From the NCBI RefSeq assembly GCF_002487355.1, contig NZ_NTMG01000013.1:1-35373 (forward strand): a DNA stretch of 35,373 nt, in the 5' to 3' direction. How positions within the stretch are numbered: position 1 is the stretch's first letter; each line of letters opens with the position of its first letter. The notes under the pieces are model-generated. The model was not told the DNA's origin. It did no database searches and was given only the letters and a program-made list of their open reading frames with translations. Origin of the DNA: Candidatus Methanoperedens sp. BLZ2 (GTDB taxonomy: Archaea; Halobacteriota; Methanosarcinia; Methanosarcinales; Methanoperedenaceae). Shown here one piece after another: positions 2,942 through 21,354 of the stretch. Position numbers and translations under genes: made by a program.

Positions 2942-4456
2942 TCAAAATAAATTTCTAAGATTCCATATACTGATATTTCCATTATCAAATACCTTGTCAA
3001 CCTCCTCGATTCTTGATCCCAAAAATACAGAAATAGCTCTCTCGTTCTTGATGTAATAATTAACATTAAAATTTTGAGCAAGATTGCCCCATCTGCCATC
3101 TAAACCCTCTGAATATAATTTATACCAGATCCATGTGGTCATTCCGGTTTGGTTTTCCAAATTGTAAGGGCCATCTAAATAGAAAAGACTTGAAAATGGA
3201 GATCGCATTGACACATTGAAATCTCCCAGAGTACCCTGGATAGGATATACAACAGGGCCTTCACTGAACATATTTACTCCCGAATAAGCAAGCACTCTGC
3301 GGTTAAGTACCCCATCGTCAGTATATACCAATTTGTTCGTAAAGGATTTGGTCCATTGAGCAGCATTAATAGTACTTTCTTCTGCCCAATATGCATTTGA
3401 TTTGCTTTGACCTTCAATATTAGACCTGCCAAATTGATAATACTCTGAAACTCCCATAGAAATTATTATAAAGATTAACATAATATAATATGCAGTTTTC
3501 CTGTTTTGGGATATCCTTATCAAGTTCACAACGCCGTAGCTTGCCAGCAATGCTTCTAAAGGTAACATGAAATATTTGGCATACATCACGATACCAAAAA
3601 GAGGCGTAAAAAATAATAAAACCAATATGATAAAACTTTCCTCAAAGGTTCTGTTTTTTTTAAACAGAATAGAAATGAAACCCCCTATTGTGAAAAAACC
3701 CATTATCCCGACATATCTGGAATAATTGAGAATTAATTTATCCAGAGTAGTTTCCTGAATGGAAAGCTCCATAAATAAAAATAGGAATAATGCTAATAGT
3801 ACTATAGACCCGAAAAAAACTGATGATTTGAATTGAATATTGCGGATTAATATAGCAAAGAAAAAACTTAATACAATAGGAATTACGAGTAAAAAGAGAT
3901 TGTGTGTCGCAAAAAGTAATATAAATAATATAATAGTAAAGAAAACATATTTTAATTTAGAAAAGCGATATTTGATCAGAAAATAAATAAATAATGGTAA
4001 CATCACCAGGAAAAATCCCCTTCCTGAGGCACTCCATGTTGTCAGATACAATATTCCCGGTGATGTTGAATATATAAGTGCTGTAATAAATTTGAAGATT
4101 TTATCATTATTTATTACTCCTGCCATTAAATATGATGTAAATAAACTAAAAATCCCTAATGATACCAGAGAAACCCACATTGCCTGTTCCATTGCCAGAG
4201 ATATTAATTGTGATACTCCGGATAAAAAAAAGGGCAGGGCACTTGCCTGAGAAAAAGGATATAAACCAACTATTGAAAGTGGATGGATCCACCACTTTGC
4301 ATGACCGGACACAGATATGGAATCTGAAATAAAGTGGATCAGGAATGAGTCATTTCCGATTTCATGGGGCGTTACGGGGAATCTCAAAATAACATTGATA
4401 AGAATCAGGCAAATCCATAGGAAAATCCAGGTACGTTTTGAAAAGTTGTAATCCAT
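2942..4456 (-). CDS. Polytopic membrane protein, possible GT-C type glycosyltransferase
   Basis: The product is 504 aa if started at the ATG at 4456, which lies 4 bases after the stop of the GT2 gene and has AGAAGGA about ten bases upstream. Reading back to 4600 would overlap the GT2 gene by 140 bases, so that longer form is rejected. About eleven or twelve hydrophobic segments follow, beginning with residues 11-27. A first external loop holds an acidic motif (HEIGNDSF, about 31-38), where GT-C enzymes carry catalytic acids. The C-terminal 120 residues are soluble and probably extracellular. The likely role is transfer of a sugar from a lipid-phosphate carrier or assembly of a surface glycan. 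The family assignment is inferred from topology and operon position. It could instead be a polymerase-like protein. Confidence 0.7.
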   Translation of the reverse strand: MDYNFSKRTWIFLWICLILINVILRFPVTPHEIGNDSFLIHFISDSISVSGHAKWWIHPLSIVGLYPFSQASALPFFLSGVSQLISLAMEQAMWVSLVSLGIFSLFTSYLMAGVINNDKIFKFITALIYSTSPGILYLTTWSASGRGFFLVMLPLFIYFLIKYRFSKLKYVFFTIILFILLFATHNLFLLVIPIVLSFFFAILIRNIQFKSSVFFGSIVLLALFLFLFMELSIQETTLDKLILNYSRYVGIMGFFTIGGFISILFKKNRTFEESFIILVLLFFTPLFGIVMYAKYFMLPLEALLASYGVVNLIRISQNRKTAYYIMLIFIIISMGVSEYYQFGRSNIEGQSKSNAYWAEESTINAAQWTKSFTNKLVYTDDGVLNRRVLAYSGVNMFSEGPVVYPIQGTLGDFNVSMRSPFSSLFYLDGPYNLENQTGMTTWIWYKLYSEGLDGRWGNLAQNFNVNYYIKNERAISVFLGSRIEEVDKVFDNGNISIWNLRNLF

Positions 4457-4460
4457 AAAA

Positions 4461-5348
4461 TCATGTCCTTCTGAACTTATTAAAATAATATTGCCAGATC
4501 TCCCGGGGTTTTTGATAATAATAATATTCCCTGACTTCAGGATCATTTGTTTTTTCTTTTTGATGTATGTAACTGCTAATATATCCAAATAAATATGCAA
4601 ATCCTAAATAATGCGGTCTCTTGAAACAATACTTTAATCCTTTTGCAGCAACAATACATGGATTCATATCCAGGTAATATTCAGAGGTGCCTTTTAAATA
4701 ATAACCTTTTTTCAATCCTTCTGCACTACCTGTTTCTCTTGAATGGATCATTTTTATATCATTAAATCTTTTAATTTTCCATTCTTTCAACATTGCTTTC
4801 ACCCTCATAACGCTTTCCCATGCGTAAGAAATCGGAACTCCGCCAATTTCCTCAATACATGCTCTTGTGCACATCATTTCACCCCCTGAAATTGTATCGT
4901 CTCGACTTTGAGCATCCTGCAAATTACCAGAGGCATCGATATATTGAATATTTCCACTTGCAATTCCCAACCCCTCATCATTTTCAAATACGGTGAGGAG
5001 TTTTTTAAAAAAATCGTTGTCTTGCGTATACATATCAGAATCAAGAAACATAATACAATCATATGTCATAGTATGTTCTTTACAAAAACTTTGTGCAAAA
5101 TCAAAACCTCTTTTTATAACTTCAGAGATATGAATCGTCAAATCCCTGTATCCTTCATTTAAATAAATGCTTTCAACCCAGCTATGATTTTTCTTTGTAT
5201 CTTGTATTATCTCGGATGTTCTATCAGTGCTTCCATCATCTACAATGACCCATAATGATGGTTTGATTGATTGGGATAATATTGATCCGATTAAGTCCTT
5301 TAAACTTTTTTCTTCATTCTTAACCGGTGTAATAATTATGTAATTCAT
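4461..5348 (-). CDS. GT2 family glycosyltransferase
   Basis: This 295-aa protein has a GT-A fold glycosyltransferase family 2 start (MNYIIITPVKNEE), the nucleotide-binding DDGSTD motif at residues 37-42 and a metal-binding FLDSDMY motif at about 101-107. A GGEMMCTRACIEEIGG stretch follows where GT2 enzymes bind the acceptor. A good AGAGGT ribosome binding site precedes the ATG. No transmembrane segment is visible, so it is probably cytoplasmic or peripheral, moving a sugar from an NDP-sugar onto a growing surface glycan. It sits 11 bases after the DUF354 gene and 4 bases before the membrane protein gene, which indicates one transcript. Donor and acceptor cannot be read from sequence. Confidence 0.9.
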   Translation of the reverse strand: MNYIIITPVKNEEKSLKDLIGSILSQSIKPSLWVIVDDGSTDRTSEIIQDTKKNHSWVESIYLNEGYRDLTIHISEVIKRGFDFAQSFCKEHTMTYDCIMFLDSDMYTQDNDFFKKLLTVFENDEGLGIASGNIQYIDASGNLQDAQSRDDTISGGEMMCTRACIEEIGGVPISYAWESVMRVKAMLKEWKIKRFNDIKMIHSRETGSAEGLKKGYYLKGTSEYYLDMNPCIVAAKGLKYCFKRPHYLGFAYLFGYISSYIHQKEKTNDPEVREYYYYQKPREIWQYYFNKFRRT

Positions 5349-5359
5349 AACCTCTCATA

Positions 5360-6418
5360 TTATTTTTTCAACTTTGAGAAACTATCCGGGAAATTTTCAA
5401 CAAATTCGATCATAAATTTTGAAACATCAATTTTATCTTTTAACATGTTTTCCCTTTTTTTCGCCCAGATACCTTTTATGTCTTCCTGCTCTAATAATTC
5501 AATTGCCGTTCCAAGAATATTATCATATGACCTTTCAACTTCTGAAAAACTGAAGATCAAACCATATTTTTTTTCTTCTTCATCAATATATCCGGTACGC
5601 AGGTTATTAATGTAGATCGCCGGCGTGCCAAGTACAGCAGCCTCACTGGCCATTGTACCGCCTTCTCCGATATACAGCGTCGCATAGCTAAGCAGGTCAT
5701 GCATCATTTCCGGTTCCACTGTGATACGATAAGCTTCAAAATCTTCTGGAAGTGCTGTTTCCGATGAAATAAATACTTTACCGTATTTTTCCAGTTCTTT
5801 TATTAATTTTAGTTTCATTTCAAAACTTAATCTTTTTTGCCCAACATCATGGATAGCATTCCACGAAACAAAACGTAATATGAAAAAAACATCACCCTTG
5901 CTTAGATTCATTTTAGATAATACTGATGGGTCCGGTCGAAAATGATCTGGATGAAGATATGCCAGCTCAAAATATCCATTAAATCGAACTTGTTTCTTGC
6001 CAAAGTCTGTTCCAAAGCAATCCGATGTGACTATTGCTGAAGTAAATGGTAATACTATTTTATGTAAATTTTCAACGTGTTCGGTATCTTCAAAAACGAT
6101 AAAAGGTTTCTTCAATAAAGCACTGACATGAGCAAAGTGGGGCAAAGCCTGTCCTATAAAAATATCCGGCCGAAATTCCAGGGCTATTCTAAGTGTATAA
6201 TATTCCCACATTGTCAAATTTAATATTTTCTTAAATAATGTTGGTTGATTTTTTCCAATAAGATCATATTTAATATTAAATTTCTCAAGAAGGTATCCTG
6301 TAATTTCTTTTTCAACCAGGACTACCCTGACTTCGTGATCCCTCGCACTCATCGCCTTTATGAAGTATTTAAACATATATACTTGCTTCGGATGTGAGAT
6401 CCCGATTAAAATTCTCAT
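5360..6418 (-). CDS. DUF354 family protein (glycosyltransferase-B / UDP-GlcNAc 2-epimerase-like fold)
   Basis: The 352-aa product begins MRILIGISHPKQVYMFKYF, a hallmark of the DUF354 proteins common in archaea, which share the GT-B-like fold of UDP-GlcNAc 2-epimerases. Towards the C-terminus YIGEGGTMASEAAVLGTPAIY matches the nucleotide-sugar binding region of that fold. The activity of DUF354 is not established; a glycosyltransferase or epimerase is likely. The ribosome binding site AGAGGTAA overlaps the stop codon of the kinase-like gene upstream (4-base gap), so the two are probably translationally coupled. It fits a role in making or adding an N-acetylated sugar in this glycan operon. Confidence 0.85.
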   Translation of the reverse strand: MRILIGISHPKQVYMFKYFIKAMSARDHEVRVVLVEKEITGYLLEKFNIKYDLIGKNQPTLFKKILNLTMWEYYTLRIALEFRPDIFIGQALPHFAHVSALLKKPFIVFEDTEHVENLHKIVLPFTSAIVTSDCFGTDFGKKQVRFNGYFELAYLHPDHFRPDPSVLSKMNLSKGDVFFILRFVSWNAIHDVGQKRLSFEMKLKLIKELEKYGKVFISSETALPEDFEAYRITVEPEMMHDLLSYATLYIGEGGTMASEAAVLGTPAIYINNLRTGYIDEEEKKYGLIFSFSEVERSYDNILGTAIELLEQEDIKGIWAKKRENMLKDKIDVSKFMIEFVENFPDSFSKLKK

Positions 6419-6422
6419 AGAG

Positions 6423-7070
6423 TTACCTCTTTGATGAATTGAACAGGTTTTCCACTAAGTATTTTTTAATTTCTTCATTAACAATTTCAAAGGGTTTGGA
6501 TGTATTGAATATAGGATAACCGTTTTCTTTAGCAATTTCCAGGTATTCTTTTCTTTCACAAGAAAGCTGGTCTGAATTATATAATATATGATTACCCCTG
6601 TAATCTATCGTTTCCATTGATTTTTCCAGAGGCGCGTCAAGCAATAAGCCAATATCGGTTCTAATGTTTTTCCAGATAGGACGCAACCATTCCACATGAT
6701 AATTCAAGGCTTTTGATTTTATGAGAGTCGCGCATACAAACCGATCAAAAATAATTATATTGTAGTCTCTATATTTCCATTTGCTATAATAGAACATCAA
6801 GATGTTATCAAGCAAAGCCACGGGAGGTTTAAGTAAAGCTGAAAATGAATATTTTGCGGGAGTATAAGGCTTCAAAGAATCACGATTTCTTCCACTATCC
6901 ACATATTTCCCGACCCGTCTCTTCAGTATATCTGCAAACATCCATTTATGAAATGGAATAATTATGCATTTTAATTCCTTTTCCTTAAACCATGAACCTA
7001 TTTTTTCCGCATGAGTAGATTTTCCAGTGCCATCTACTCCAAGAAACGCAATTGTGATTTTTTTTTCCAT
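6423..7070 (-). CDS. Thymidylate-kinase-like P-loop protein
   Basis: This 215-aa protein has a Walker A motif GVDGTGKST at residues 11-19, a strand ending in the FDRFV motif of the thymidylate kinase superfamily, and a later Arg-containing stretch. Length matches dTMP kinases, but the middle (KWMFADILKRRVGKY and onward) diverges. Position inside a glycan operon, rather than with DNA genes, suggests it phosphorylates something other than dTMP, perhaps a sugar or nucleotide intermediate. That is inference. A GAAGGT ribosome binding site precedes the ATG. It follows the HprK-like gene by 43 bases and precedes the DUF354 gene by 4. Confidence 0.8.
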   Translation of the reverse strand: MEKKITIAFLGVDGTGKSTHAEKIGSWFKEKELKCIIIPFHKWMFADILKRRVGKYVDSGRNRDSLKPYTPAKYSFSALLKPPVALLDNILMFYYSKWKYRDYNIIIFDRFVCATLIKSKALNYHVEWLRPIWKNIRTDIGLLLDAPLEKSMETIDYRGNHILYNSDQLSCERKEYLEIAKENGYPIFNTSKPFEIVNEEIKKYLVENLFNSSKR

Positions 7071-7113
7071 TTCATACCTTCTTTGATCTTTGCACTCATA
7101 TCATAACAATAAT

Positions 7114-8196
7114 TCATAATTCTTTCAAAATTAAATTAATATTACTACTCACTTCTTTAAATACAACATCATCATACTCGCCTGGAATTTCCATCTCATA
7201 TACGGGTATGCCTTTTAAAAAACCAGCAAGTCTGTTTTTCATATTGATCCAGTGTGCAGCGATCTGACTTTCTGGAAAAATAAACGAATATGCCAGCATA
7301 TATTCAAAAAACGGATTTGAAGATATACCCATAAGATTGGGCATATAAGCATGGTTCATTTCCATCATATTATTTGTGATTAATTTATCAACGGCTTTTT
7401 TCAGGTCATATTCATTTATAGTCATTGATTTTCTTGCAGATTTTTTAACGATAAAAAACAATGCCTTTAATTCAGACATCTCAGGGACATTTACTTTAAG
7501 CCGCCTCAAATTGTCGTAATTATTGATATTATGTTTTATCAAACCTATTTTATCCAGAAAATTACGTTTGTTTTCTGTTGGTAAATAACTGCATCTGTAA
7601 TCAAATGAAACCAGGCCAACCGGATAACTCCAGATGCGCCCATCATTAAATATTACTCTTTCATCTCCAAAAAAATCAAACCCTGCTTTCCGGATAAAAT
7701 CCATTGCTAAGGTTGTTTTGAATGCTCCTCCCATCCCTGCCAGCAGAAATGCCTTATTATCTTTTCCAAGGCCTGCAGAATGGATTAAGAAATATCCTTT
7801 ATTTGATAATTTATAATCAATAACAGAACTCAGGAAAAGATTATGGGCACTTAAGATAGGCAGAAAACCCCTTACTCCGGGAACCTTAATATCGAAGTTT
7901 ATTATCGTATCTCCTGATTCGAATCCGGATATCTCCACTTCCCATTTCGTTGTACCTTCTGAATCCTTACAGTAAAAATAATTGTTTTTTATATAATATT
8001 TACCATCAACAATATAACTTTCTTCATTCGACGGCTTAAACTTACCGATATTAAGGATAATATCCGGTTTATCTATATGATCGACTTGAAAAAATCTATG
8101 CTCAATATTAAAATAGTTAAATAAATTAAATTTTTTATCTAATAAAATTTGAAATTTTAATATGTTATGAATATTGTAATTTAATGTTTGTTTCAT
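7114..8196 (-). CDS. HprK-like P-loop kinase family protein
   Basis: The 360-aa product has an N-terminal domain of about 110 residues, then IHSAGLGKDNKAFLLAGMGG leading into a P-loop GMGGAFKTT at residues 154-162 and FFGDERVIF at about 175-183 as a Walker B-like strand. This layout matches the HPr-kinase-like proteins known from exopolysaccharide/exosortase and ribosomally made peptide clusters of bacteria, where they accompany ATP-grasp or PqqD-type proteins. The residue before the P-loop Lys is Phe rather than the usual Gly. The substrate is unknown; it may be a protein or a small metabolite. It lies 44 bases after the ATP-grasp gene in the same direction. Confidence 0.7.
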   Translation of the reverse strand: MKQTLNYNIHNILKFQILLDKKFNLFNYFNIEHRFFQVDHIDKPDIILNIGKFKPSNEESYIVDGKYYIKNNYFYCKDSEGTTKWEVEISGFESGDTIINFDIKVPGVRGFLPILSAHNLFLSSVIDYKLSNKGYFLIHSAGLGKDNKAFLLAGMGGAFKTTLAMDFIRKAGFDFFGDERVIFNDGRIWSYPVGLVSFDYRCSYLPTENKRNFLDKIGLIKHNINNYDNLRRLKVNVPEMSELKALFFIVKKSARKSMTINEYDLKKAVDKLITNNMMEMNHAYMPNLMGISSNPFFEYMLAYSFIFPESQIAAHWINMKNRLAGFLKGIPVYEMEIPGEYDDVVFKEVSSNINLILKEL

Positions 8197-8240
8197 CGTT
8201 TTATCCTTGCCAGTATGATATATATTTATTTTTCCTTATA

Positions 8241-9404
8241 TTATTTATGTCTGCTATTAAGGACGTCCTTCAATCCCTTATAAGCGAACATCATAGCAGG
8301 TAACGCATCATTAATTGAAAAAGCATCATAATAAAGATCTTTTTCATAGAATTTAAAAAATTCCTTAAAAGTTGTAAAGCGATGGCCTGAATTGTTAAGA
8401 TGGCTGATAAGGGCACGGAAGTCATTTAATAAAAAACGGGTCTTAACACCGACCTTATAATTAAAAACCGGCTCAACATCTCCATATAAAGCCATTTCAT
8501 AGAGGAGATATGGAAAATTAACACCTGCAGCAATTGCCTGGTATACCGATCCCCAGAAACGCGGATTGACCTCAATAAGGACTGGCTTGTTGGTGCGCTC
8601 ATCGAGTTTAAATTCCACCATTGCAACCCCATGCCAGTTAACGTGATCCAGTATCTTCCTGGCAGCATTCTCCATCTCCTGGTTCCTGACACTCACCCGC
8701 AATGTGCTCGGTCCGCCTGTTATAGGATATTCCCTCAATCTCTTATGGGTGAATGAGGCTCTGATGTCTCCCTGGTTATAAAGCATTGACACACCATATC
8801 CGGATCCGGGTATATACTCCTGCACGATAGGATATTCTGAAGATTTGAGATTAAATTTTTGAATTGTTTGTTTATATTTTGAAACAAATTCAGAGGCCGA
8901 ATATACATAGGATATACCGACACTGCTTGTTGCATTTCTTAATTTAATGACAACCGGATATTCCATTTCTTTTGAGAATTTTTCTATGTCTGTGGCATTA
9001 TTTATCTCATACGTTCCCGGAATGCGTATATCCAGTTCTGATGCGAGCTTCATAACTTCATTTTTATTATGAAGTTGCATCATTTTTGGAAAATCCTCAA
9101 AAGGTACTTTTGTAAATGGCGTAAATTTTTCTTTATATTTTGAAATAAGATTTGTTTCCGTGCTATTAATCGGCATTAAAACATCGATTTTATTTCTTTT
9201 TATATGATTTTGAATGGAATTTACGAATTCAAGTTGCGTTCTTTCGGGAGAGGCACACAGGAAGTGATGTTTAGAATACCTGGAAAAAAATGCCGCAGAT
9301 AAATATTCACAATCTGTTGTTGTAATTTCTACCCCTTTTTTGCCCAGGCTCTGTGTAACTACAAGACCTTTCACATTTGATGCATTTGTTATAAGTACGC
9401 TCAT
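8241..9404 (-). CDS. ATP-grasp ligase, carbamoyl-phosphate-synthase-like
   Basis: The start is taken at the ATG at 9404, with a GGTGAT ribosome binding site about 8 bases before it. This gives 387 aa and a clean MSVLITNASNVKGLVVTQSL beginning. Residues about 120-310 carry ATP-grasp motifs: VVIKLRNATSSVGISYV, IVQEYIPGSGYGVSMLY and, for metal binding, LIEVNPRFWGSVYQAIAAGV. Such stand-alone ATP-grasp proteins join a carboxylate to an amine or other nucleophile through an acyl-phosphate. In surface glycan loci they can add amino-acid or other acyl groups to sugars, which is the role suggested here. The PHP gene upstream ends 10 bases away and the HprK-like gene follows, so the three may act together. 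Confidence 0.85.
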   Translation of the reverse strand: MSVLITNASNVKGLVVTQSLGKKGVEITTTDCEYLSAAFFSRYSKHHFLCASPERTQLEFVNSIQNHIKRNKIDVLMPINSTETNLISKYKEKFTPFTKVPFEDFPKMMQLHNKNEVMKLASELDIRIPGTYEINNATDIEKFSKEMEYPVVIKLRNATSSVGISYVYSASEFVSKYKQTIQKFNLKSSEYPIVQEYIPGSGYGVSMLYNQGDIRASFTHKRLREYPITGGPSTLRVSVRNQEMENAARKILDHVNWHGVAMVEFKLDERTNKPVLIEVNPRFWGSVYQAIAAGVNFPYLLYEMALYGDVEPVFNYKVGVKTRFLLNDFRALISHLNNSGHRFTTFKEFFKFYEKDLYYDAFSINDALPAMMFAYKGLKDVLNSRHK

Positions 9405-9414
9405 TATAGTTAAA

Positions 9415-10107
9415 TCACCGCAATAAGATTTTATGCAAACCGGCATTAAATAAACCTGTTATTCCGGCTTTATTATATTTGCCAATTCCTGCACTTAACA
9501 TACGAATATGAAAGGGAGATGCATTTCCCCATGCGTTTACTTTCCCATTAAGCAAATACTTCCTGAGGTCTTCGCTATTATTGAATATTTGTTCGCCAGT
9601 CAGGATCGTACGCACGCGCCCTATCTCAAAAGATGTATGAGCATCGCTTCCCGCAACTATTCTTTTTTCAAATTTTTTGGATAAAATGCTGGCTTTTTCG
9701 TTTAATTTCTTTGAAATTCGTGAATTCATTACTTCTACCATGTCAACATCCACTATCAAATCCGCTGGATTTGCGAACTTATTTTTATATGGATGCGGTA
9801 AAATTGATATTCCTCCCTGATCTTTTATAATATCAATTACGTCGATAAATCTTCTTGAAGTTATGTTTTCATTTAAAAACAATCCAATTACATCTCCTTT
9901 ATCAGTCGATATTTCTGACCCCGCGATGACCATAAAATCATCTCCTGCAAGAGACTTCATCTTTACTGCACCAGCCATTGTATTATGATCAGTTATCGCT
10001 ATCCCTGAAAGACCTCTTTTCCTGGATATTCTAATTATTTGTTCTAGCTGCAAAGTTGAATCATGTGAGTAGATAGAATGCACATGTAAATCGAGATTAT
10101 ACATCAT
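9415..10107 (-). CDS. PHP domain phosphoesterase
   Basis: The 230-aa protein shows all four PHP motifs: an HxH pair in LDLHVHSIYSHD (residues 6-16), ITDHNTM, ILPHPY and a final GSDAHTSFEIGR. These place metal-binding His and Asp residues as in the PHP family, whose members hydrolyse phosphoesters; examples are histidinol-phosphate phosphatase and the YwqE/CpsB tyrosine-protein phosphatases of capsule loci. The size fits a stand-alone PHP enzyme. Two adjacent ATG codons at 10107 and 10104 could both start translation. In this operon it could remove a phosphate placed by the neighbouring HprK-like or thymidylate-kinase-like protein, or trim a sugar phosphate. The substrate is not predictable. 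Confidence 0.88.
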   Translation of the reverse strand: MMYNLDLHVHSIYSHDSTLQLEQIIRISRKRGLSGIAITDHNTMAGAVKMKSLAGDDFMVIAGSEISTDKGDVIGLFLNENITSRRFIDVIDIIKDQGGISILPHPYKNKFANPADLIVDVDMVEVMNSRISKKLNEKASILSKKFEKRIVAGSDAHTSFEIGRVRTILTGEQIFNNSEDLRKYLLNGKVNAWGNASPFHIRMLSAGIGKYNKAGITGLFNAGLHKILLR

Positions 10108-10137
10108 GGGTATCCTATTTCATAGCACTGTGTCATA

Positions 10138-10944
10138 CTAATTTTTATTTTTCCTATACCAGATGATTCCTGCTTTTCCGATATTTTTCAGGTTTTGTAA
10201 TATCAATTCTCCAGTCCAGTCAATAAGATGGCCATGCCATCTGTCCGGGTGCGCCAGAAGACATATCCGGGGATATTGTTCTTCTTTTATCAAATTAATA
10301 ATATCATCCGTTGTTGATATATTTCCAATCAATAAATTATTTTTTTGATGATCCTTGTCCTTGATAACATCTTTTACTCTGATATTTTTATCTGCCCAGG
10401 TACGACCAGTATCGGTAAGATAAATAACATCTTTATAATCAAGGGATAGGTATGGTTCACCAATGATTCCAAAATCCCTAAAATCATATTTATTCCAAAT
10501 ATTTGAATTCAACCATGGAGAAAATGGATTTCCATGCATACATACAGTCTTTATATTGATAAATTCCCGGAATGCATTCAGTTCTTGACTGAAGATCTTA
10601 ATTGCTTCCTCCACATCACCTTTTGCTTTATCAAGTGTTTCATAGTGGTAACCGATCTCATGCCCCATAGCGGCTATTTCCTGGAAATATTCCGGTTTAA
10701 ATACTCTTTCTGTCGTTCTACAGTAATAAGTGGAAACCAGATTTAATCTCTGTTCAATCATGGCCATTTTATGTGCATTGGAAATATTTCTGTCTACATC
10801 ATGCCGGAGGAGGATGCAATTTTTTGGTGGATTTTCCTGATTAAAATATTGCTCAAAAGTAAATGTAGTGTATGAAGAATTTGAAATTGTTTCACACAAC
10901 GTCTTATATTTTTCCAATGTAAAATCTATATTCAATTTTCTCAT
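10138..10944 (-). CDS. Polysaccharide deacetylase-like protein (NodB/CE4 superfamily)
   Basis: The 268-aa product contains LLRHDVDRNISNAHKM near residues 46-61, with the Asp pair typical of the CE4 metal site. GHEIGYHYETLD follows, holding the matching His residues, then CMHGNPFSPW and LLAHPDRWH. No signal peptide is visible, so it may act in the cytoplasm on a lipid- or nucleotide-linked sugar rather than on a finished polymer. It is the first gene of the run leading to the membrane protein at 2942, and the PHP gene starts 30 bases downstream. The family is clear; deacetylation of an N-acetyl sugar is the likely reaction. Confidence 0.82.
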   Translation of the reverse strand: MRKLNIDFTLEKYKTLCETISNSSYTTFTFEQYFNQENPPKNCILLRHDVDRNISNAHKMAMIEQRLNLVSTYYCRTTERVFKPEYFQEIAAMGHEIGYHYETLDKAKGDVEEAIKIFSQELNAFREFINIKTVCMHGNPFSPWLNSNIWNKYDFRDFGIIGEPYLSLDYKDVIYLTDTGRTWADKNIRVKDVIKDKDHQKNNLLIGNISTTDDIINLIKEEQYPRICLLAHPDRWHGHLIDWTGELILQNLKNIGKAGIIWYRKNKN

Positions 10945-11095: not shown

Positions 11096-11698
11096 TTATT
11101 TCCTTTTCTTCATCATGAACAACAAAGCCATTATGGCTATAACTGGCATCACTATTGATGGAAATTCCGGAATCTCATCAACTTTTTTAATTGTTGTTTG
11201 TGTGTTAAAACCTGTGTTACTACTACCTTCATACCCATTAACACAAGGGGGAGCCTGTATTTCGAGCTCTTCCCCATTACTGGATACTAATTTAAAAGTA
11301 GAAATTCCATACGGAATAAAGATATCTATCCTTTTTATTTGTTCAGGCAACAAATTAATTGTAAAATTCAAAGGATAAATAGTAATGGATTCATTATCAA
11401 AAACGAAATTACTCAGCCTTACGTCAATAACACGTTCAATATCGCTTTTATTAGTACAGGTTAGTATCTCTCCGGAAAAATTTAATTTTATAGCTTCTGG
11501 TTGTGAATTTTCCTGGAATACTGCAGAGCTCAAATTAGCTAATTGGACATTTTCTGTATTTAATTTTTCAAAAACATTATTGTCCAAAATTGTATTAGCT
11601 CCATATTTTTCAGTTCCATATTTTTCATTTATAACTAATATGCCGATTAACATAAACAATGATATTAGCAATATTATTCTTTTTTTAATAACGGTCAT
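11096..11698 (-). CDS. PEF-CTERM surface protein (archaeosortase substrate)
   Basis: The 200-aa product has an N-terminal signal/anchor (residues about 8-24, IILLISLFMLIGILVI). Next is a beta-rich domain of about 120 residues with Asn-X-Ser/Thr sequons and a Cys pair, then a C-terminal tripartite signal: IPEFPSIVMP (PEF at 177-179), a hydrophobic helix and the basic tail MMKKRK. This is the PEF-CTERM signal described in methanogens, processed by an archaeosortase that removes the tail and probably attaches the protein to a lipid. No archaeosortase gene is visible in the window. The gene stands alone upstream of the glycan operon in the same direction, with a GGGAG ribosome binding site. Its specific function is unknown. 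Confidence 0.85.
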   Translation of the reverse strand: MTVIKKRIILLISLFMLIGILVINEKYGTEKYGANTILDNNVFEKLNTENVQLANLSSAVFQENSQPEAIKLNFSGEILTCTNKSDIERVIDVRLSNFVFDNESITIYPLNFTINLLPEQIKRIDIFIPYGISTFKLVSSNGEELEIQAPPCVNGYEGSSNTGFNTQTTIKKVDEIPEFPSIVMPVIAIMALLFMMKKRK

Positions 11699-11852: not shown

Positions 11853-12215
11853 CTAAAGAAATTTCTGGATAATACCGTCCGGAAGTTTATAATATTTTTT
11901 AATTATATTGATAAAGATTTTTTCCTGGGCGAATTTAGTCATGGAATAGTTATCTTCGAAATCCTCGATATTTTCAAGGTCTTTAGCGACAAGCCGCATC
12001 CTGACGCTTGAACCCGGGAGCTTGAGATGTTTTTCCAATTGAGATAATGCATTGATAAAATAACCTGAACCGACAGCTCTATCAGAGCCTATATTTTTTA
12101 CCATTCCACAATGGATGCAGTAAGGGTGGGATTTTAAGACTATAGGGCGCTCTCGTATAATATACGGCAGCCACACTTTCTCAATATTTCCACAATCTAC
12201 ATGTTCGCATTTCAT
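11853..12215 (-). CDS. Small zinc-ribbon-type protein of unknown function
   Basis: The 120-aa product begins MKCEHVDCGN and has a second pair YCIHCG at about residues 32-37, so a CX4C...CX2C zinc-binding ribbon is likely. The C-terminal two thirds are helical (FINALSQLEKHLKLPGSSVR, MTKFAQEKIFINIIKKYYKL). A GGAAGAG ribosome binding site precedes the ATG. It could be a small DNA- or protein-binding regulator of the flanking sugar genes, since it is transcribed divergently from rfbF across a 257-base gap, but nothing in the sequence proves that. I do not recognise a characterised homologue. Confidence 0.7.
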   Translation of the reverse strand: MKCEHVDCGNIEKVWLPYIIRERPIVLKSHPYCIHCGMVKNIGSDRAVGSGYFINALSQLEKHLKLPGSSVRMRLVAKDLENIEDFEDNYSMTKFAQEKIFINIIKKYYKLPDGIIQKFL

Positions 12216-12394: not shown

Positions 12395-12472
12395 CTACTT
12401 TAACCATAACTTGAACCGATAGTGTATTGAACAAAAAATAATAATAAATAAAAATTCCAAGGTGTGATTTTA

Positions 12473-13243
12473 ATGAAAGTAGCGATTCTTGCCGGGGGAT
12501 ACGGCACACGTTTAGCAGAAGAGACAGAAATAAGACCAAAGCCACTGGTAGAGATCGGAGGAAAACCGATCCTGTGGCATATTATGATGCACTACGCTCA
12601 CTATGGTTTCAAAGATTTTGTTATAGCCCTGGGATATAAAGGTGAAGCAATAAAAAAATACATGGTGGACTATTGTTCTTTGAATAGCGATCTGACCATC
12701 GATCTTAAATCAGGCAAAATAGAGATAGATGGTGGCTACAAACCCGACTGGAAGGTAAAACTTGTTGACACGGGGACGAATACCCAGACAGGGGGCAGGA
12801 TCAAAAGACTTGCGCAGCATCTTGGCAATGAGACATTTATGTTAACCTGGGGAGATGGAGTATCTGATGTTAATCTTAAAGACCTTCTGGCATTTCATCG
12901 CTCACATGGAAAATTAGCAACCCTGACAGCCGTAAGACCCCCTGCGCGTTACGGTCACCTGAAATTTGATAATAACAGGATAACAGAATTCACTGAAAAA
13001 CCCCAGACAGGAGAAGGCTGGATAAACGGGGCTTTTTTTGTACTTGAGCCGGGTGTTTTTGATTATATTACAGGAGATGAAATAGTATGGGAGAAAGAAC
13101 CGCTGGAAGGACTTGCCAGGGACGGGCAATTGATGGCCTATCAGCACACCTCTTTCTGGCAATGTATGGATACACTGCGTGAGAAATATATACTGGAGAA
13201 ACTATGGCAAAGCGGAAAAGCCCCCTGGAAAATATGGGAGTGA
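12473..13243 (+). CDS. rfbF: Glucose-1-phosphate cytidylyltransferase
   Basis: The 256-aa enzyme makes CDP-glucose from CTP and glucose 1-phosphate, the first step to CDP-linked deoxysugars. It has the nucleotidyltransferase signature [13 protein letters not shown] near residues 6-18, [26 protein letters not shown] for metal binding and [21 protein letters not shown] for the sugar site. Length is that of the RfbF/DdhA family. The start at 12473 is chosen over the ATG nine bases earlier because it gives the standard MKVAILAGG beginning, with GGTGTGAT upstream as ribosome binding site. The next gene starts 4 bases after its stop, so the two are co-transcribed. It is cytoplasmic. Confidence 0.95.
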
Positions 13244-13247
13244 TAAA

Positions 13248-14300
13248 ATGAAAGTATTAGTGACAGGACATAACGGTTATGTAGGTACGGTCATGATGCC
13301 CATGCTAATTAAAGCAGGGTATGATGTTACAGGACTTGATTCAAACCTGTATAAAGGATCAACATTTGGAGAAATGATTAAAACGCAAGATTATTCTGAA
13401 ATAGAAAAAGACATCCGGGATATCCAGTCTTCTGACCTGAAAGGATTTGAGGCCATAATTCACTTAGCCGGCCTTTCAAATGACCCTCTGGGGGATCTGA
13501 ATCCGGAGCTGACGTATGAGATCAATCACAAAGCATCAGTGCGACTGGCAAAACTTGGTAAAAATGTTGGCGTGAAACGTTTTATTTTTTCATCGTCATG
13601 CAGTAATTATGGGGCAGGCGGCCAGGATTGGCTGGATGAAAAATCGCCTTTCAATCCTGTTACACCATATGGCACATCCAAGGTTCGTGTTGAACAGGAG
13701 GTAGCCAAACTTGCGGATGATGATTTCAGCCCGACTTTCTTGCGAAGCGGTACTGCGTATGGTGTCTCACCGCGCCTGCGTTTTGACCTGGTATTGAATA
13801 ATCTGCTGGCCTGGGCATTTACTACAGGAAAGGTCTTTCTAAAAAGCGATGGCCTGGCCTGGCGTCCGATCGTGCATATTCGGGATATGTCGCTTGCTTT
13901 CTTATCTGCTCTGGATGCCCCCATCGACCTTGTCCATAATGAGGCGTTCAATGTGGGCCGCACAGAAGAAAATTATCGCGTACGAGATCTGGCTGATATT
14001 GTTGCAGAAACAGTACCTGGCAGTAAAATAGAATACTCCTCAGGTGCAGAACCTGATAAACGTAATTATCGTGTGTTATGTAATAAAATATCAGAAACGC
14101 TTCCAGGGTATAAACCTCGCTGGACTGCCAGGCAGGGTGCAAAAGAATTGTATGAAGCATATAAGAAAGTTGGACTTCGCCAGGAAGAATTTGAAGGATC
14201 TCGATACCGGCGTGTAGACCATATCAAACAATTGTTAAGCAGCGGCCGTTTGGATGATACCCTTCGCTGGACAAAAAATGCTAAAAATCAGGAGAATTAA
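13248..14300 (+). CDS. NAD-dependent epimerase/dehydratase (extended SDR) for CDP- or NDP-sugar
   Basis: The 350-aa product starts at the ATG at 13248, giving the Rossmann motif GHNGYVG at residues 7-13. The upstream reading into rfbF is rejected. SSSCSNYG and PYGTSK (YxxxK) are the extended-SDR catalytic residues. [16 protein letters not shown] and [10 protein letters not shown] match sugar-nucleotide epimerases/reductases. This kind of SDR is regularly found between rfbF and a C-methyltransferase, and it probably epimerises or reduces a 4-keto sugar. It does not look like CDP-glucose 4,6-dehydratase itself, which starts differently, so that step may be encoded elsewhere. The stop is followed 3 bases later by the methyltransferase ATG. 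Confidence 0.88.
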
Positions 14301-14303
14301 ATA

Positions 14304-15533
14304 ATGGCTCGCTCAAAGCCCGCATGTTTTTCCTGCGCAAATACCGAATTAAAGTCGATATTGAATTATGGCCAGACACCTATTGCTGATCGTCTGCTCA
14401 CTAAAGAAAAATTAGGGAAACCGGAAATAACGGCTCCTCTGGAACTTGTTTTTTGTCCTGAATGCAGGTTAGTGCAAATAACTGAATCCGTATCTCCGGA
14501 AATCCTGTTTGTTAAAGACTATCCGTATTTCTCATCAGTATCACCTGCTTTACTTGAGCATTTCAGGAAGAGTGCCGAGGCAATAATCGGCTCAAGAAAA
14601 CTAAACTCCAAAAGCCTGGTAATTGAAGCTGCAAGTAATGATGGCTATATGCTTAAAAATTTCGTCAAAATGGGTATTCCTGTGCTGGGCATCGATCCTG
14701 CCCAGGACCCTGCAGAAGCTGCCACGAAAGCGGGCATCCCGACCCTTTGCACGTTCTTTGACAGGGATTTAGCAGGCAAACTAAAGAACGAAGGCCGCAT
14801 GGCAGACGTTTTCCTGGCCAACAATGTCCTTGCCCACGTTCCTGATCTCAATGGTTTTGTTGAAGGCTTGAAAATGCTATTAAAGGATACAGGCGTTGCC
14901 GTAATGGAGGTTCATTATGTGGCCGACCTTGTTGACCACCACGAATTCGACACTGTGTATCACCAGCACCTGTGCTATTTTTCAGTTACTGCATTAGATA
15001 ACCTGTTCAGGAAGCATGGTCTTTTCCTGAATAAAGTTGAACGTATTTCTACCTACGGCGGATCATTGCGTTTGTTTGTAGAACACCATGAAAATGTGAG
15101 TGAGTCTGTAAGTTCGCTCCTTGAAGAAGAGTCAAATAAAGGGGTCGACCAGATCGATTATTTCCTGGATTTTGCAAATAAAGCACATGAAATGAAGGAT
15201 TCCCTTGTAAAGCTCTTACATGACCTGAAGCAGAAAGGAAATAGAATAGTAGCTTATGGAGCAGCTGCAAAAGCTACAACATTTCTCAGTTATTGTGGAT
15301 TGGGGAAGGATCAACTGGATTATATAATTGACCTGAACCAGTTCAAGCAGGGCCGCTATATGGGAGGAAACCATCTCCTGATTGTACCGCCGGAAAAGCT
15401 TGCACAGGACATGCCGGATTATGTACTGCTTCTTGCATGGAATTTTGCAGATGAGATATTAAAGCAGCAGGCAGCTTACAGGGAAAAAGGTGGAAAATTT
15501 ATCATTCCAATCCCTAATCCAAAAATCGTATAA
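14304..15533 (+). CDS. Sugar C-methyltransferase (TylCIII/TcaB9-type)
   Basis: The 409-aa protein has the three-part structure of NDP-hexose C-methyltransferases. An N-terminal zinc-binding domain carries C8/C11 and C51/C54. A SAM-binding Rossmann domain carries [12 protein letters not shown] (about 106-117), and [18 protein letters not shown] in its second half holds the catalytic His/Glu region. A C-terminal domain contains [18 protein letters not shown]. Such enzymes add a methyl group at C3 of a 4-keto deoxysugar to make branched sugars. Placement directly after rfbF and the SDR gives a small operon for a branched CDP-sugar destined for the surface glycan. It is the last gene of this operon; about 200 bases follow before the next start. 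Confidence 0.92.
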
Positions 15534-16067: not shown

Positions 16068-16721
16068 ATGGAAAACGGCGAACACATGTTCTCAGAACCT
16101 GAAGAAAGAAATCTTAAATATATTACAGAATTGTATGGCAAAGTTAAAGAATTGATAATTTTTTGTGAGGAGAACCAAGAAGAATTTAAAACTAACCTCC
16201 ATATAGTGAAGGAATTAAGAGATGCTTTTGACCACTTAATGCGTGTTTTTGCCGTAAAGCTTGAATTGAAGGAAGGGAGGGAGGATGGATACATACAAAC
16301 AAGCTTAGATAAAGTATTGGGGCATGTATTTAGGGCAGGATATGATACATTAGATTTTGCTACAATTATTTTGAGAGATAAAATTAATAAAGAAGTATCG
16401 GATTTTTCACCTTCTGCAATACAAGCTTCAATCCCAAATTACTACTCTGAAATACGACCTTCGGTTGAATCTATAACAACAGATATAATCAAATTAAGAA
16501 ATAATAAAGATATAGCACAACCATCTCCAGAGTTATTTAATGAGTATTTTAAAAATGTTATTAAACTACAAGAAATGTTTAAACAAATAGTTACAGCCAA
16601 ACCATCGTTGATAGAGTATGCAAACAAAGAGCGGAACGGAAAATGGAGTAATTTTTCCATACAGATTGTTGTAGGTATTATTATAGGTGCTATATTGGTT
16701 TGGGCAGGATTAAGCGGATAA
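16068..16721 (+). CDS. Helical protein with C-terminal membrane anchor, unknown
   Basis: From the ATG at 16068 the product is 217 aa. The frame is open further back to an ATG at 15993, inside the 60-aa gene, and an ATG at 16086 is also possible, so the start is uncertain. The body is predicted mostly helical and charged (KYITELYGKVKELIIFCEEN, KELRDAFDHLMRVFAVKLEL, GHVFRAGYDTLDFATIILRD). A single hydrophobic helix closes the protein (about residues 197-217, SIQIVVGIIIGAILVWAGLS). This is a tail-anchored topology with the body in the cytoplasm. The RDAFDHLMR stretch is faintly HEPN-like but lacks a clear RX4-6H motif. A role as membrane effector or signalling protein is only a guess. Confidence 0.65.
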   Translation: MENGEHMFSEPEERNLKYITELYGKVKELIIFCEENQEEFKTNLHIVKELRDAFDHLMRVFAVKLELKEGREDGYIQTSLDKVLGHVFRAGYDTLDFATIILRDKINKEVSDFSPSAIQASIPNYYSEIRPSVESITTDIIKLRNNKDIAQPSPELFNEYFKNVIKLQEMFKQIVTAKPSLIEYANKERNGKWSNFSIQIVVGIIIGAILVWAGLSG

Positions 16722-16766
16722 TTCCCACCGATTCACCAACCGCCTTTTCACCGAAATTATTTTACA

Positions 16767-18077
16767 ATGACCACCCAATTTTCACCAAAGCCTAAAACCG
16801 TAATCATCGGAGGAGGACTTGCAGGTCTTGCTGCTGCATACAGACTTGCAGGAAAAGATGAAGTAGTGATCATCGAGAAAGAACCTGAACCTGGAGGTAT
16901 GGCTTCAAGCTACAGTATAAAAAGTACGGAATTTTATCATATTGAAAAATATTATCACCATATCTTTGCAAGCGATAAAGAACTCATATCTCTTATTAAT
17001 GAACTGGGGATCGGCAACAAGCTTGAATGGCTGCGCGGGACCACAGGATATTTTTTTAACGGGAAGATTTATCCAATGAATACGCCGTTTGAAATCCTGA
17101 AAGCTTTGCCTTTCATGGATGTCATAAGATTGACATTGCTGGTCATGAAAGCTAAGACCATAAAGGACAGGACTGCTTTTGATAATATCACAGCAAAAAA
17201 ATGGATCATAGACACAGCAGGTGAATCGGTATATAATAGTTTTTTCGAGCCGCTATTGTCAAGTAAATTTGGGGATAATAAAGAAAAAGTGTCTGCTGCC
17301 TGGCTACTTGGAAGAGTCCAGATCCGCTCTAACAGGGGCGCAAAAGGCGAAAAGCTTGGATATATGCGCGGGGGTTTTTATGCTATTGTTGAAGCAATGG
17401 CTGATTCCATACGGAAAAAGGGGGGGAGAATAATCAATGGAAGCGTATCGAATATTGAGATAAAGGATGGTTGTGTAAGAGGCATCGTTGTAGAAGGGAA
17501 ACTCATCGGCTGCGACAGGGTTATTTCAACTGTAGCTCCTCATGTTCTTAAAAAAATAATTGACCCGCATCTTCCCGGACTTGACCTGGATATAAGTTAT
17601 CAGGGGACTGCCTGTGCACTTTTCGGTTTAAAGGAAGCGCTCATGGATGAAGTCTATTGGCTGAATATTAAGGAGAATGTTCCTTTTGGTGCAGTGATAG
17701 AGCATACTAATTTTATTCCGTTATCTGATTATGGCGAACATCTTGTATACGTTACTTCATATTTCCAGAACCCTGATAGTCCTCTCTGGAGTTTAAAAGA
17801 CGAAGAGGTCATCGAACTATATCTGAAAGGTCTTGAAAAGCTTTTTTCCGGCTCCAGGGAAAAAGTGAAGTGGTGGAGACTTCGAAGGGATATGGATACT
17901 GCGCCTGTTTATGAAGTCGGGTATGGGAAGAAAATACTTCAATACAGGACTAAGATCAAGGGACTTTATCTTGCGGGTATGTTCTCAGAAGCGAATTATC
18001 CTGAACGAAGCATGAATGGATCGATCCTAGCAGGATTTAAGTGTGCTGATGAAGTAATAAAAGCGCCAATAAAATGA
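16767..18077 (+). CDS. FAD-dependent oxidoreductase of the amine oxidase / protoporphyrinogen oxidase superfamily
   Basis: The 436-aa flavoprotein has the dinucleotide-binding motif VIIGGGLAGLAAAYRLAG near residues 12-29, followed by VVIIEKEPEPGGMASSY. The C-terminal FAD motif is LYLAGMFSEANYPERSMNGS at about 405-424. The substrate domain lies between (FYHIEKYYHHIFASDKELIS, SFFEPLLSSKFGDNKEKVSA). Members of this group near sugar genes are often annotated as protoporphyrinogen-oxidase-like or UDP-galactopyranose-mutase-like. The actual substrate may be a lipid or nucleotide sugar. The ATG at 16767 has no ribosome binding site, consistent with a leaderless message. It follows the CDP-sugar genes in the same direction but is separated from them by the small cassette. 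Confidence 0.85.
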   Translation: MTTQFSPKPKTVIIGGGLAGLAAAYRLAGKDEVVIIEKEPEPGGMASSYSIKSTEFYHIEKYYHHIFASDKELISLINELGIGNKLEWLRGTTGYFFNGKIYPMNTPFEILKALPFMDVIRLTLLVMKAKTIKDRTAFDNITAKKWIIDTAGESVYNSFFEPLLSSKFGDNKEKVSAAWLLGRVQIRSNRGAKGEKLGYMRGGFYAIVEAMADSIRKKGGRIINGSVSNIEIKDGCVRGIVVEGKLIGCDRVISTVAPHVLKKIIDPHLPGLDLDISYQGTACALFGLKEALMDEVYWLNIKENVPFGAVIEHTNFIPLSDYGEHLVYVTSYFQNPDSPLWSLKDEEVIELYLKGLEKLFSGSREKVKWWRLRRDMDTAPVYEVGYGKKILQYRTKIKGLYLAGMFSEANYPERSMNGSILAGFKCADEVIKAPIK

Positions 18078-18371
18078 TTATTTACCGGATTCTTCATAAA
18101 TGATTTTTTCCTTCTCTCTCTTCAGGTCCATTTCACGGCGCGCGATGGCTTTCATTGCTTCCGAGGGTTTTACGGTCACCTGTATCCTGTGCTTCCTGTC
18201 ACTCATATAAGCAGCATAACCATAGACCATATACACAATGAATGCTGCCGGGATAATGAACAACCATCCTGCGGTAAAGGCAAGGAATGTTTCAGCCGGG
18301 TAATAATATGCCGATACCATAGTGGCGCCCCCAAGAAACAGGGCTGCGATGTATTTTACTCGATGATCCAT
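18078..18371 (-). CDS. Small membrane protein with two transmembrane helices
   Basis: The product is 97 aa from the ATG at 18371, which has GTGAT as ribosome binding site; an in-frame codon five positions earlier is less likely. Two hydrophobic helices (about residues 7-24 and 28-50) are followed by a charged C-terminal tail rich in Lys, Arg and Glu (REMDLKREKEKIIYEESGK). Function is unknown. It converges on the FAD oxidoreductase gene, with its stop directly after that gene's stop. Confidence 0.65.
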   Translation of the reverse strand: MDHRVKYIAALFLGGATMVSAYYYPAETFLAFTAGWLFIIPAAFIVYMVYGYAAYMSDRKHRIQVTVKPSEAMKAIARREMDLKREKEKIIYEESGK

Positions 18372-18563
18372 AAAAATCACACTCAAATATCATTATGTGA
18401 TGACAATGTTAAAAGAATATTTGGTGGTGGATTTAGCGGTTATGAACCTGTTGCGTCACGATCTTTAAGATATGCACTTTTTGCGCCATGTTATTTGGAA
18501 TATGAACTTTATCTGCCATATGAGCGATTATTGAGAAATAATATTGGGATTGTCATCATAATT

Positions 18564-18707
18564 TTAACACGTTATATCAGCAATGATTTCAAGTAATTCA
18601 TTGTCTGGCAGCCGATTCTTATTCCGGCGGTTTCTATGATGACCCTTCGAGTTATACCGTTTGTGAGAAGAAAAGCCAGCAGAACATTCGTATCAATGAT
18701 TATCATT
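18564..18707 (-). pseudogene. Decayed VapC-like PIN-domain toxin remnant
   Basis: The ATG at 18707 opens with MIIIDTNVLLAFLLT, the first strand and metal-binding Asp of PIN-domain (VapC) nucleases. After residue 15 the frame becomes basic and unlike PIN, then ends with DNELLEIIADITC, close to the central PIN helix. An alternative frame shows NGIT-like PIN sequence right after a run of four A residues, which suggests a frameshift plus an internal deletion. Total length is 47 aa against about 130-150 for an intact VapC, and the last catalytic acids are missing. It cannot be active as read. Confidence 0.6.
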
Positions 18708-18858
18708 TATTCTTCTCGGAACGCCATCTATTGACCATTTCTTCGATATCTTTCTCTTCTAATCCTTCCACTTTATCAAATTCTTTAAGTAACTTTTTAT
18801 CAAGTCTAAAAATTACCTGAGTTTCTACCAAGAAATTGTCAGATGCACAAAAAAGCAT
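18694..18858 (-). CDS. Short antitoxin-like ORF upstream of the PIN remnant
   Basis: The frame from ATG 18858 gives 54 aa: MLFCASDNFLVETQVIFRLD, then a helical acidic stretch KEFDKVEGLEEKDIEEMVNR and a short basic end. It overlaps the PIN start by 14 bases, the usual VapB-VapC arrangement. The VIFRLDKKLLKEFDKV part resembles a ribbon-helix-helix beginning, so it may be the partner antitoxin, now orphaned. A start at an internal TTG is equally possible. Confidence 0.45.
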
Positions 18859-19165
18859 GGTAGCAGTTCTGGAAAAAAGGAAGGAGCCGCCTAAAACAAT
18901 TGAGGAGTGTGTTGGGTGGCTCCCCCCAATGAATGTTTTTCACCCGGCTTAATCCTATGCATGATGATGTGATTGGTCACAATGATCACACTTCATTTTT
19001 TTGCTCATTTTCGGATTTGGATATTCTGCAAAGATGCAATCGCCTTGTCATATTGGCCCGGTTACAAAGTTGTTGTGTATTGTTAATATTTCTAACACAA
19101 TTCAAATGACTGATTGGAACTGAAATCCAAGAATCTATATCACAAAGAGATCATGATAATATAAA
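18859..19165 (+). other. 307-base gap with a hairpin and a short unlikely ORF
   Basis: No convincing gene is present. An inverted repeat ggagccgcc (18883-18891) / ggtggctcc (18915-18923) can pair over nine positions with one weak pair. A 31-codon plus-strand frame from ATG 18857 to a TAA near 18952 (MVAVLEKRKEPPKTIEECVG at its start) spans it; it may be a gene fragment. The right end holds the VIT gene promoter. Confidence 0.35.
19134..19141 (+). promoter_or_regulatory. TATA box of the VIT/CCC1 gene
   Basis: tctatatc lies about 25-32 bases before the ATG at 19166, which has no ribosome binding site. This spacing predicts a leaderless transcript, common in archaea. Confidence 0.45.
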
Positions 19166-19669
19166 ATGAATAGCAAATACCCGAATCAACTGGTGACAGG
19201 GGTCAGTTTTGGAATAACTTCGGGAGTGATCACAGCTCTTGGGATGATCGTTGGCTTGCATGAAGCCACTTCTTCAAGATTGGCGGTATTTGCAGGGATC
19301 GTGGTCATGGCAATAGCTGACGGAATGGCAGATGCCGCCGGCTTCCATGTTGTTGAGGAGGCTGAATTAGAGAACGGAAAAGCTAAACATAGTTCAAGGG
19401 AAGTGTGGATGACAACCTTTTTCACATTTCTTGGGGTTTGCGGTTTTATACTGACTTTTGCCGTTCCGATTTTGATTTATGATCTGGGATTTGCAGTTAT
19501 TGTTGATATTGTCTGGGGGATATTGCTTATAGTTGCACTTAATATTTATATCGCAAAATTAAAGAATGAAAGCGCGATCAAACTTGTTATCGAGCATGTT
19601 TCCCTTGCCGTAGTTGTAATAACCATCTCATATTTTACAGGAAAATTAATAAGTGGATGGATTCAATAA
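19166..19669 (+). CDS. VIT1/CCC1-type transmembrane metal (Fe/Mn) transporter
   Basis: The 167-aa membrane protein has about five helices and starts with GVSFGITSGVITALGMIVGL, a VIT1/CCC1 family signature. MAIADGMADAAGFHVVEEAE follows, where acidic residues on the second helix line the metal path. It is shorter than yeast CCC1 and plant VIT1 (about 230-320 aa) and lacks a large cytoplasmic metal-binding insert; the loop ENGKAKHSSREVW is all that remains. The likely role is export of ferrous iron or manganese from the cytoplasm. It is a single gene converging on the regulator-like gene, 14 bases away. Confidence 0.82.
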   Translation: MNSKYPNQLVTGVSFGITSGVITALGMIVGLHEATSSRLAVFAGIVVMAIADGMADAAGFHVVEEAELENGKAKHSSREVWMTTFFTFLGVCGFILTFAVPILIYDLGFAVIVDIVWGILLIVALNIYIAKLKNESAIKLVIEHVSLAVVVITISYFTGKLISGWIQ

Positions 19670-19683
19670 TCTCAGTATTAAAT

Positions 19684-21334: not shown

Positions 21335-21354
21335 ACAAGCCCTGAATAGGGCAC

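Follow-up and report, generated by a model that had tools for sequence, protein, structure and literature searches.

A probable archaeosortase C substrate beside surface glycan genes in Candidatus Methanoperedens, from a family whose sorting tail appears to follow the enzyme of the genome

The stretch of DNA analysed here (the window) comprises 35,373 nucleotides of contig NZ_NTMG01000013.1 (C11) of Candidatus Methanoperedens sp. BLZ2, whose genome (G000) counts 3.74 Mb in 85 contigs with mcrA present. At its centre of interest lies a short open reading frame, a member of the family termed fam9, whose product (the window protein) has the C-terminal sequence DEIPEFPSIVMPVIAIMALLFMMKKRK and is flanked on both sides by genes of glycan metabolism and by a gene of the family fam10 (Table 1).

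Table 1. Genes and protein features around fam9, in positions of the window
Feature	Position	Strand	Basis or remark
Protein without family match	2942..4600	-	start uncertain (TTG, overlaps next gene)
Family 2 glycosyltransferase (GT2)	4461..5348	-	
DUF354 protein	5360..6418	-	
Thymidylate-kinase-like protein	6423..7070	-	PF02223, 43.7 bits
HprK-related kinase-like protein	7114..8196	-	27.6 bits, far below cut-off 200; without Pfam match
ATP-grasp protein	8241..9446	-	
PHP-domain protein	9415..10107	-	Pfam match
Glycan-operon gene without family match, deacetylase-like by eye only	10138..10944	-	homologue in G020
Candidate PEF-CTERM surface protein (fam9)	11096..11698	-	200 aa, ATG start
Predicted PEF-CTERM sorting tail: IPEFP, hydrophobic segment, KKRK	11099..11173	-	TIGR03024 matches
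Predicted beta-sandwich core, residues 71-155, C81 and C152 invariant	11234..11488	-	AlphaFold2, alignment
Putative signal peptide or signal anchor, residues 1-26, basic and hydrophobic	11621..11698	-	hydropathy; predicted helix 3-26
fam10, marker of artC loci	11853..12215	-	120 aa, four invariant cysteines
Glucose-1-phosphate cytidylyltransferase	12464..13243	+	TIGR02623, 380 bits, cut-off 300
NAD-dependent epimerase/dehydratase	13179..14300	+	PF01370
C-methyltransferase	14304..15533	+	PF08484, PF08421

The PEF-CTERM model TIGR03024 aligned with residues 176-200 of the window protein from end to end (model positions 1-25 of 25). The tail scored 20.1 bits in hmmscan, below the curated cut-off of 23, and 23.9 bits (E 3e-4), above it, when the complete genome was searched in six frames; the same six-frame search at E <= 1 gave matches in 6 of 14 control genomes, none of them over the cut-off, and the tails of the two nearest homologues exceeded it in hmmscan (27.2 bits in G021 and 24.2 bits in G020). 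The archaeosortase signal recognized in this tail by the initial annotation could thus be confirmed as a predicted PEF-CTERM signal, lying near the edge of the model. The hmmscan score below the cut-off would also suit a tail that serves as an ordinary C-terminal anchor in the membrane, ends in basic stop-transfer residues, stays uncut and resembles PEF only incidentally, and the N-terminal segment, with a hydrophobic stretch at residues 8-24 after KKR (mean hydropathy 2.95), could likewise be an uncut anchor; the evidence against such a reading is taken up with the tails of the family.

The window protein is small and probably secreted. Its AlphaFold2 model has a low-confidence stretch between the hydrophobic N-terminus and the beta-sandwich, with block pLDDT values of 88-95 for residues 71-150 and of 62 for the block 151-160, and the two core cysteines, invariant in 14 of 14 aligned rows, could form a disulphide. 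Searching the core against the PDB with Foldseek gave 1629 matches at E <= 10 and none at 0.001, the best among the top 50 of the 1629 having an E of 2e-3, so the core is regarded as a generic beta-sandwich and no function was drawn from its fold. The domain DUF5643 was considered for the window protein and set aside as too weak to claim (18.4 bits, cut-off 34).

The genes at 2942-10944 (minus strand), including those for GT2, DUF354, ATP-grasp and PHP proteins, may fairly be described as one putative glycan operon, and together with the cytidylyltransferase, epimerase and C-methyltransferase on the opposite side of fam9 they bear out the label of a surface glycan operon in the initial annotation. 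Homologues of the GT2 and DUF354 proteins, scoring about 400 bits, are found in the operon of G020, family searches of the genes 10138-10944 and 2942-4600 matched no family, and 151 bases separate fam9 from the next gene. Elsewhere in the window there are an aconitase with AcnB-type domains (23073-25544), here in an archaeal genome; an adenylate kinase with the ADK lid domain PF05191 (25907-26569), a form commoner in bacteria; and a tRNA-Ser (GGA) at 29355-29439 that overlaps the called start of the ORF 29397-30002.

The neighbour fam10 gave no match in family searches and has a middling AlphaFold2 model (mean pLDDT 71.6), and its cysteines C3, C8, C33 and C36 are invariant in 8 of 8 aligned rows. 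It adjoins fam9 in the window's genome and in G021, and adjoins the M48-artC pair in G020, G002, G013, G007, G027 and G004, a recurrence that could possibly mark it as a regulator of the ArtC locus. Copies outside the window lie at L028:10186-10548, L202:8330-8692 and L203:6482-6844.

The archaeosortase presupposed by the initial annotation is present: the window's genome encodes a single ArtC (C40:44827-45621), which scored 235 bits with TIGR03762 against a cut-off of 100, a model without matches in any of the 14 control genomes. Besides this ArtC (54 bits), PF09721 at E 0.01 found no exosortase in the window's genome, which by this search has no EpsH/XrtA-type enzyme of the PEP-CTERM/exosortase A system. 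Other PEF-CTERM proteins were also looked for, as the initial annotation had advised, and one more was found; with four weaker TIGR03024 matches (E 0.06 to 1) dropped, the tails over the cut-off in this genome are two, that of the window protein and that of a 172-aa protein at C40:49766, 3.7 kb from artC. All 18 ArtC proteins that were aligned have the Cys, Arg and His. A divergent subgroup of about 135-154 bits (L211:9944-10813, L212:13927-14763, L213:12859-13695 and L214:5788-6621) has GCFG instead of PCSG around the Cys in four aligned proteins, and in G015 and G024 the divergent ArtC lies 7-8 kb from an XrtA-like exosortase. A catalytically dead ArtC, to which an empty CSG search had pointed in G008, G012, G015 and G024, was ruled out, as these proteins retain all three residues, the Cys (in CFG), the Arg and the His.

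Enzyme and window protein stand on different contigs of G000 and on a single contig of G021, with ArtC at C1:108073 and the window protein's homologue at C1:156927. Among matches of at least 300 bases, contig C40 maps reversed onto this G021 contig from 98502 to 145896, and end to end, base 2 of C40 falls at 145896 and base 1 of the window's contig C11 at 145886; the alignment of C40 is interrupted in places, for instance by gaps at C40:6368-7735 and 16508-22754, and many repeats in the region give rise to secondary matches, the very ends included. Because both are collinear with C1 of G021, C40 and C11 most likely abut in one island, which would place artC about 57 kb from fam9. Between the two lie two C-methyltransferase-like genes, GT2-like genes, a hexapeptide-like and a FemAB-type gene together with very long proteins, the glycan genes being called by similarity at E 1e-4 to a panel of 14 glycan proteins and, for one methyltransferase and the FemAB gene, by Pfam. 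The very long ORFs, of 3590 and 4996 aa with internal repeats, are situated between M48/artC and the glycan genes (L242:26753-37525 in G000:C40 and L239:110237-125227 in G021:C1). A TnpB-type transposase ORF (L241:6547-7722; OrfB_IS605, Cas12f1-like domain) occupies the gap C40:6368-7735, inside the artC island.

A more compact arrangement was found in G020, in the order glycan operon, fam9, fam10, M48, artC, DUF1616, VanZ, a second PEF protein, GT4, hexapeptide acyltransferase and DegT, where fam9 stands at the head of the glycan genes, with a gap of 14 bases to a UbiA gene and 1.8 kb from artC. The FemAB protein of this locus scored 287 bits with TIGR03019, the XrtA/PEP-CTERM-associated model (cut-off 260), which at E 1e-5 had matches in 19 of 60 genomes, over the cut-off only in G020 and G007, and weak ones in the window's genome (59.5, 51.4 and 36.6 bits). 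In the window's genome and in G021, fam10 is kept beside fam9 and M48 beside artC, and the orientations there compared with G020 would fit an inversion of about 48 kb.

Bacterial exosortase substrates and exopolysaccharide genes are linked, and the initial annotation had proposed a possible archaeal parallel. Such a parallel is supported, and the linkage of archaeosortase and glycan genes recurs: 24 of 271 genes in 16 artC regions matched the glycan panel, compared with 5 of 319 in 19 control regions (Fisher p 7e-5; Mann-Whitney p 0.002), with at least one panel gene in 10 of the 16 artC regions and none in the other 6. The 18 ArtC loci were taken from 24 matches over the cut-off; L026 and L028, which had supplied panel proteins, were not counted, whereas G021 was retained although it is closely related to one panel source. 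The control regions were hand-picked from contigs of known length, non-random and in some cases far along artC contigs; 19 of the 20 were counted, one region of 3 kb being dropped for its length, and all five control glycan genes came from two regions on contigs with a FemAB match. Genes were called greedily as ORFs, with a minimum length of 90 aa.

The same panel found nothing in the 17-20 kb covered around fam9 in 7 of the 14 fam9 regions (two in G014, one of two in G012, and those of G031, G008, G019 and G004), and with the panel sources excluded the fam9 regions held 11 panel genes among 216, with 7 of 11 regions at zero (Fisher p 0.035). The glycan link is therefore a property of the artC locus and not of the fam9 family. 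These empty regions, together with the departure of the G000/G021 gene order from that of G020 by the apparent inversion, are what would be expected if the window protein were a sorting substrate placed beside the glycan operon by chance rearrangement, with no role in the glycan coat. Against such a coincidence, fam9 heads the glycan genes in G020 across 14 bases with artC near, and glycan genes are more frequent in artC regions than in the controls, so that we regard chance placement as a doubtful account, though one with some claim to attention.

The annotation had further suggested that the products of the neighbouring operon decorate the protein, which did not find clear backing: the window protein has five N-X-S/T sequons outside its two ends against 2.7 expected (p about 0.10). 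The five sequons would agree with a glycoprotein, as would the seven in the G020 protein against 2.65 expected (p 0.002), yet that protein is the only one enriched among the 14, and the other 13, the window's included, are without enrichment at p 0.05. We therefore consider decoration by the operon unlikely.

When the 237 genomes of the class were searched with the profile of the fam9 core, 14 copies were recovered from 12 of them, every one within a single archaeal family; an earlier single-protein search had given 18 matches in 15 of 60 genomes, from which four tail-only matches were dropped (G032, G034, G054 and one in G012). The tails read IPEFP or IPEYP in G000, G020 and G021, IPEFQWIGLP in G008 and G012 (two), and PVPELS in G003, G014 (two), G031, G013, G019, G004 and G002. 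In seven VPELS proteins scanned (five of the eight from fam9 and two others), no sorting model exceeded its cut-off, and the nearest were PEP-CTERM models, so that VPELS is best described as a putative, unnamed PEP-CTERM-like tail. Although the preceding linker is highly variable, all 14 aligned rows keep the Pro and Glu of the tail, which speaks against an uncut anchor.

An EpsH/XrtA-like enzyme (PF09721 > 100 bits) was found in 11 of 34 genomes of the family (G002, G003, G004, G013, G015, G016, G019, G024, G027, G030 and G031), interrupted in G030 by a contig end. VPELS tails, called at E 1e-6 with no better PEF match, a threshold chosen after the results had been inspected, occur in 13 family genomes, namely the 11 owners of the enzyme plus G011 and G014, so that the enzyme is present in 11 of 13 genomes with VPELS versus 0 of 21 without (p 3e-7). 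A threshold of E 0.01 would add G007, G008, G012 and G022 with seven matches, five of which coincide with PEF-CTERM matches. Since the VPELS model was built from fam9, non-fam9 proteins were also counted alone, giving 8 of 9 versus 3 of 25 (p 7e-5). VPELS proteins stand within 3 kb of the XrtA-like enzyme in 5 of its 11 genomes (G002, G003, G013, G016 and G027), three of these matches being weak (E 1.6e-5 to 2.6e-4). The enzyme of G003 scored 155 bits with TIGR02602 (cut-off 105.6) and 170.5 bits with the XrtA model (cut-off 208) and is accordingly called XrtA-like rather than XrtA; an EpsI-like protein adjoins it (23 bits, cut-off 42.8), and a similar neighbour accompanies the enzyme in G002, G013, G004 and G019.

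Within fam9, the XrtA-like enzyme is present in 6 of 7 VPELS genomes and in 0 of 5 PEF-type genomes (p 0.015), all five of which have ArtC over the cut-off. Three of the seven VPELS genomes (G002, G004 and G013) also have ArtC over the cut-off, so fam9 there uses VPELS though both enzymes are present. The exceptions are G014, with two VPELS fam9 proteins and no exosortase found, and G011, with VPELS and PEF tails and neither enzyme found; in G013, where two ArtC exceed the cut-off, PEF tails gave no match at E 0.01, though a PEF2 homologue truncated at the end of a contig has the motif IPEF. These p values overstate the case because the genomes are relatives. On an McrA tree, partial with 20 rows of which 17 are from the genus, three independent pairs on supported branches gave on average 1.7 in agreement, 1.3 without difference and 0 against, too few pairs for significance or for settling independence.

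In 11 of the 12 core genomes the tail class agrees with whether the genome has the XrtA-like enzyme or not; this, and the position of artC 1.8 kb from fam9 in G020, again argue against an uncut anchor of incidental PEF likeness, which appears very unlikely. The best reading, by comparison of these sequences, is that the tail of fam9 follows the sorting enzyme of the genome. The family might even have been re-addressed in evolution, perhaps twice, between two sorting enzymes of one superfamily, keeping its core while its tail changed between PEF (for ArtC) and VPELS (for the XrtA-like exosortase) to match the enzyme owned, a scenario that we hold to be about as likely as not. The fam9 core tree requires two changes for VPELS, with a supported branch (95/97) between, but a single VPELS clade was not rejected (AU p 0.071).

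Given these findings, we consider it likely that the window protein is an ArtC substrate, exported and cut near PEF, with its beta-sandwich mounted on the surface alongside the coat, a view slightly weakened because VPELS tails also occur in three ArtC-owning genomes. The protein would be exported via its N-terminal signal, and its hydrophobic C-terminal tail would hold it briefly in the membrane until it is cut at or near the PEF motif by ArtC, itself a membrane enzyme that carries Cys, Arg and His. The beta-sandwich would be left on the cell surface, with its new C-terminus probably joined to a membrane lipid or glycolipid, although attachment to a lipid, attachment to a glycan and release would each fit the sequences; cleavage at PEF by ArtC, with membrane mounting of the sandwich domain, is inferred by analogy with ArtA (PMC7157517). 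The window protein would most likely be made, perhaps from jointly expressed genes, and mounted together with the glycan coat, because the enzyme, both candidate substrates and many glycan genes share what appears to be one island.

Compared with the known PEF-CTERM/ArtC system (TIGR03024/TIGR03762), the case is alike in the end-to-end tail, in the Cys, Arg and His of the genome's ArtC and in the presence of substrate and enzyme in one locus in G020, whereas it differs in having only two tails over the cut-off in the window's genome, with that of the window protein at the edge of the model, and in the additions of the G020 locus, namely FemAB, UbiA, a flippase, GT4 and a deacetylase-like gene (71 bits, cut-off 276), a set resembling bacterial exosortase loci. 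The bacterial PEP-CTERM/EpsH (exosortase) system is tied to exopolysaccharide loci (Haft 2006, PMC1569441), and shares with the present case the tripartite tail, a membrane enzyme with Cys, Arg and His and glycan genes around the enzyme, whereas the window's genome is without an XrtA-like enzyme and the tail is PEF, not PEP; with artC in glycan loci of several relatives (10 of 16 regions), the archaeal system appears to work like the bacterial one without being a member of it. For ArtA and PGF-CTERM proteins of Haloferax volcanii, PMC7157517 describes processing at the tail, an active-site cysteine and lipid attachment; the likeness would be one of outline, a cut at a tripartite tail followed in the ArtA case by lipid attachment, while ArtC belongs to another enzyme subfamily and goes with another motif.

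The best reading of the window protein itself is that of an ordinary-looking, well-placed new substrate of the known ArtC/PEF-CTERM system. The PEF-CTERM/archaeosortase system was reportedly defined in the study Haft 2012. For ANME-2d, PMC5244752 reports ArtC, further exosortase domains and cytochromes that end in PGF or PEF tails, which means that the enzymes themselves are no novelty in that group, and artC is lost in a gut methanogen according to PMC9723798. In the accessible text of the literature naming PEF-CTERM, ArtC is merely scored as present or lost and no substrate study was found, and in that on archaeosortases and exosortases a glycan locus of artC, a VPELS tail or a change of tail was not found described, some of which Haft 2012 may mention. 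The interest lies in the family-level difference of tails and in the exosortase-style archaeal locus.

The presence of the XrtA-associated FemAB next to artC in G020 suggests that some components of a surface-coat toolkit are common to archaea and bacteria. These organisms are anaerobic methane oxidisers, in which electron transfer depends in part on surface proteins. The window's genome, with its one ArtC and no more than two candidate substrates in an apparently single glycan island, would offer a simpler case than haloarchaeal ArtA, which has many substrates, and because close relatives differ in their tails, the specificity for the motif is open to direct test. If fam9 was indeed re-addressed, a natural tail-swap experiment would already have been done, and, together with the recurring fam10-M48-artC-DUF1616-VanZ-GT4 locus, this would mean that these archaea own true exosortase-style coat loci.
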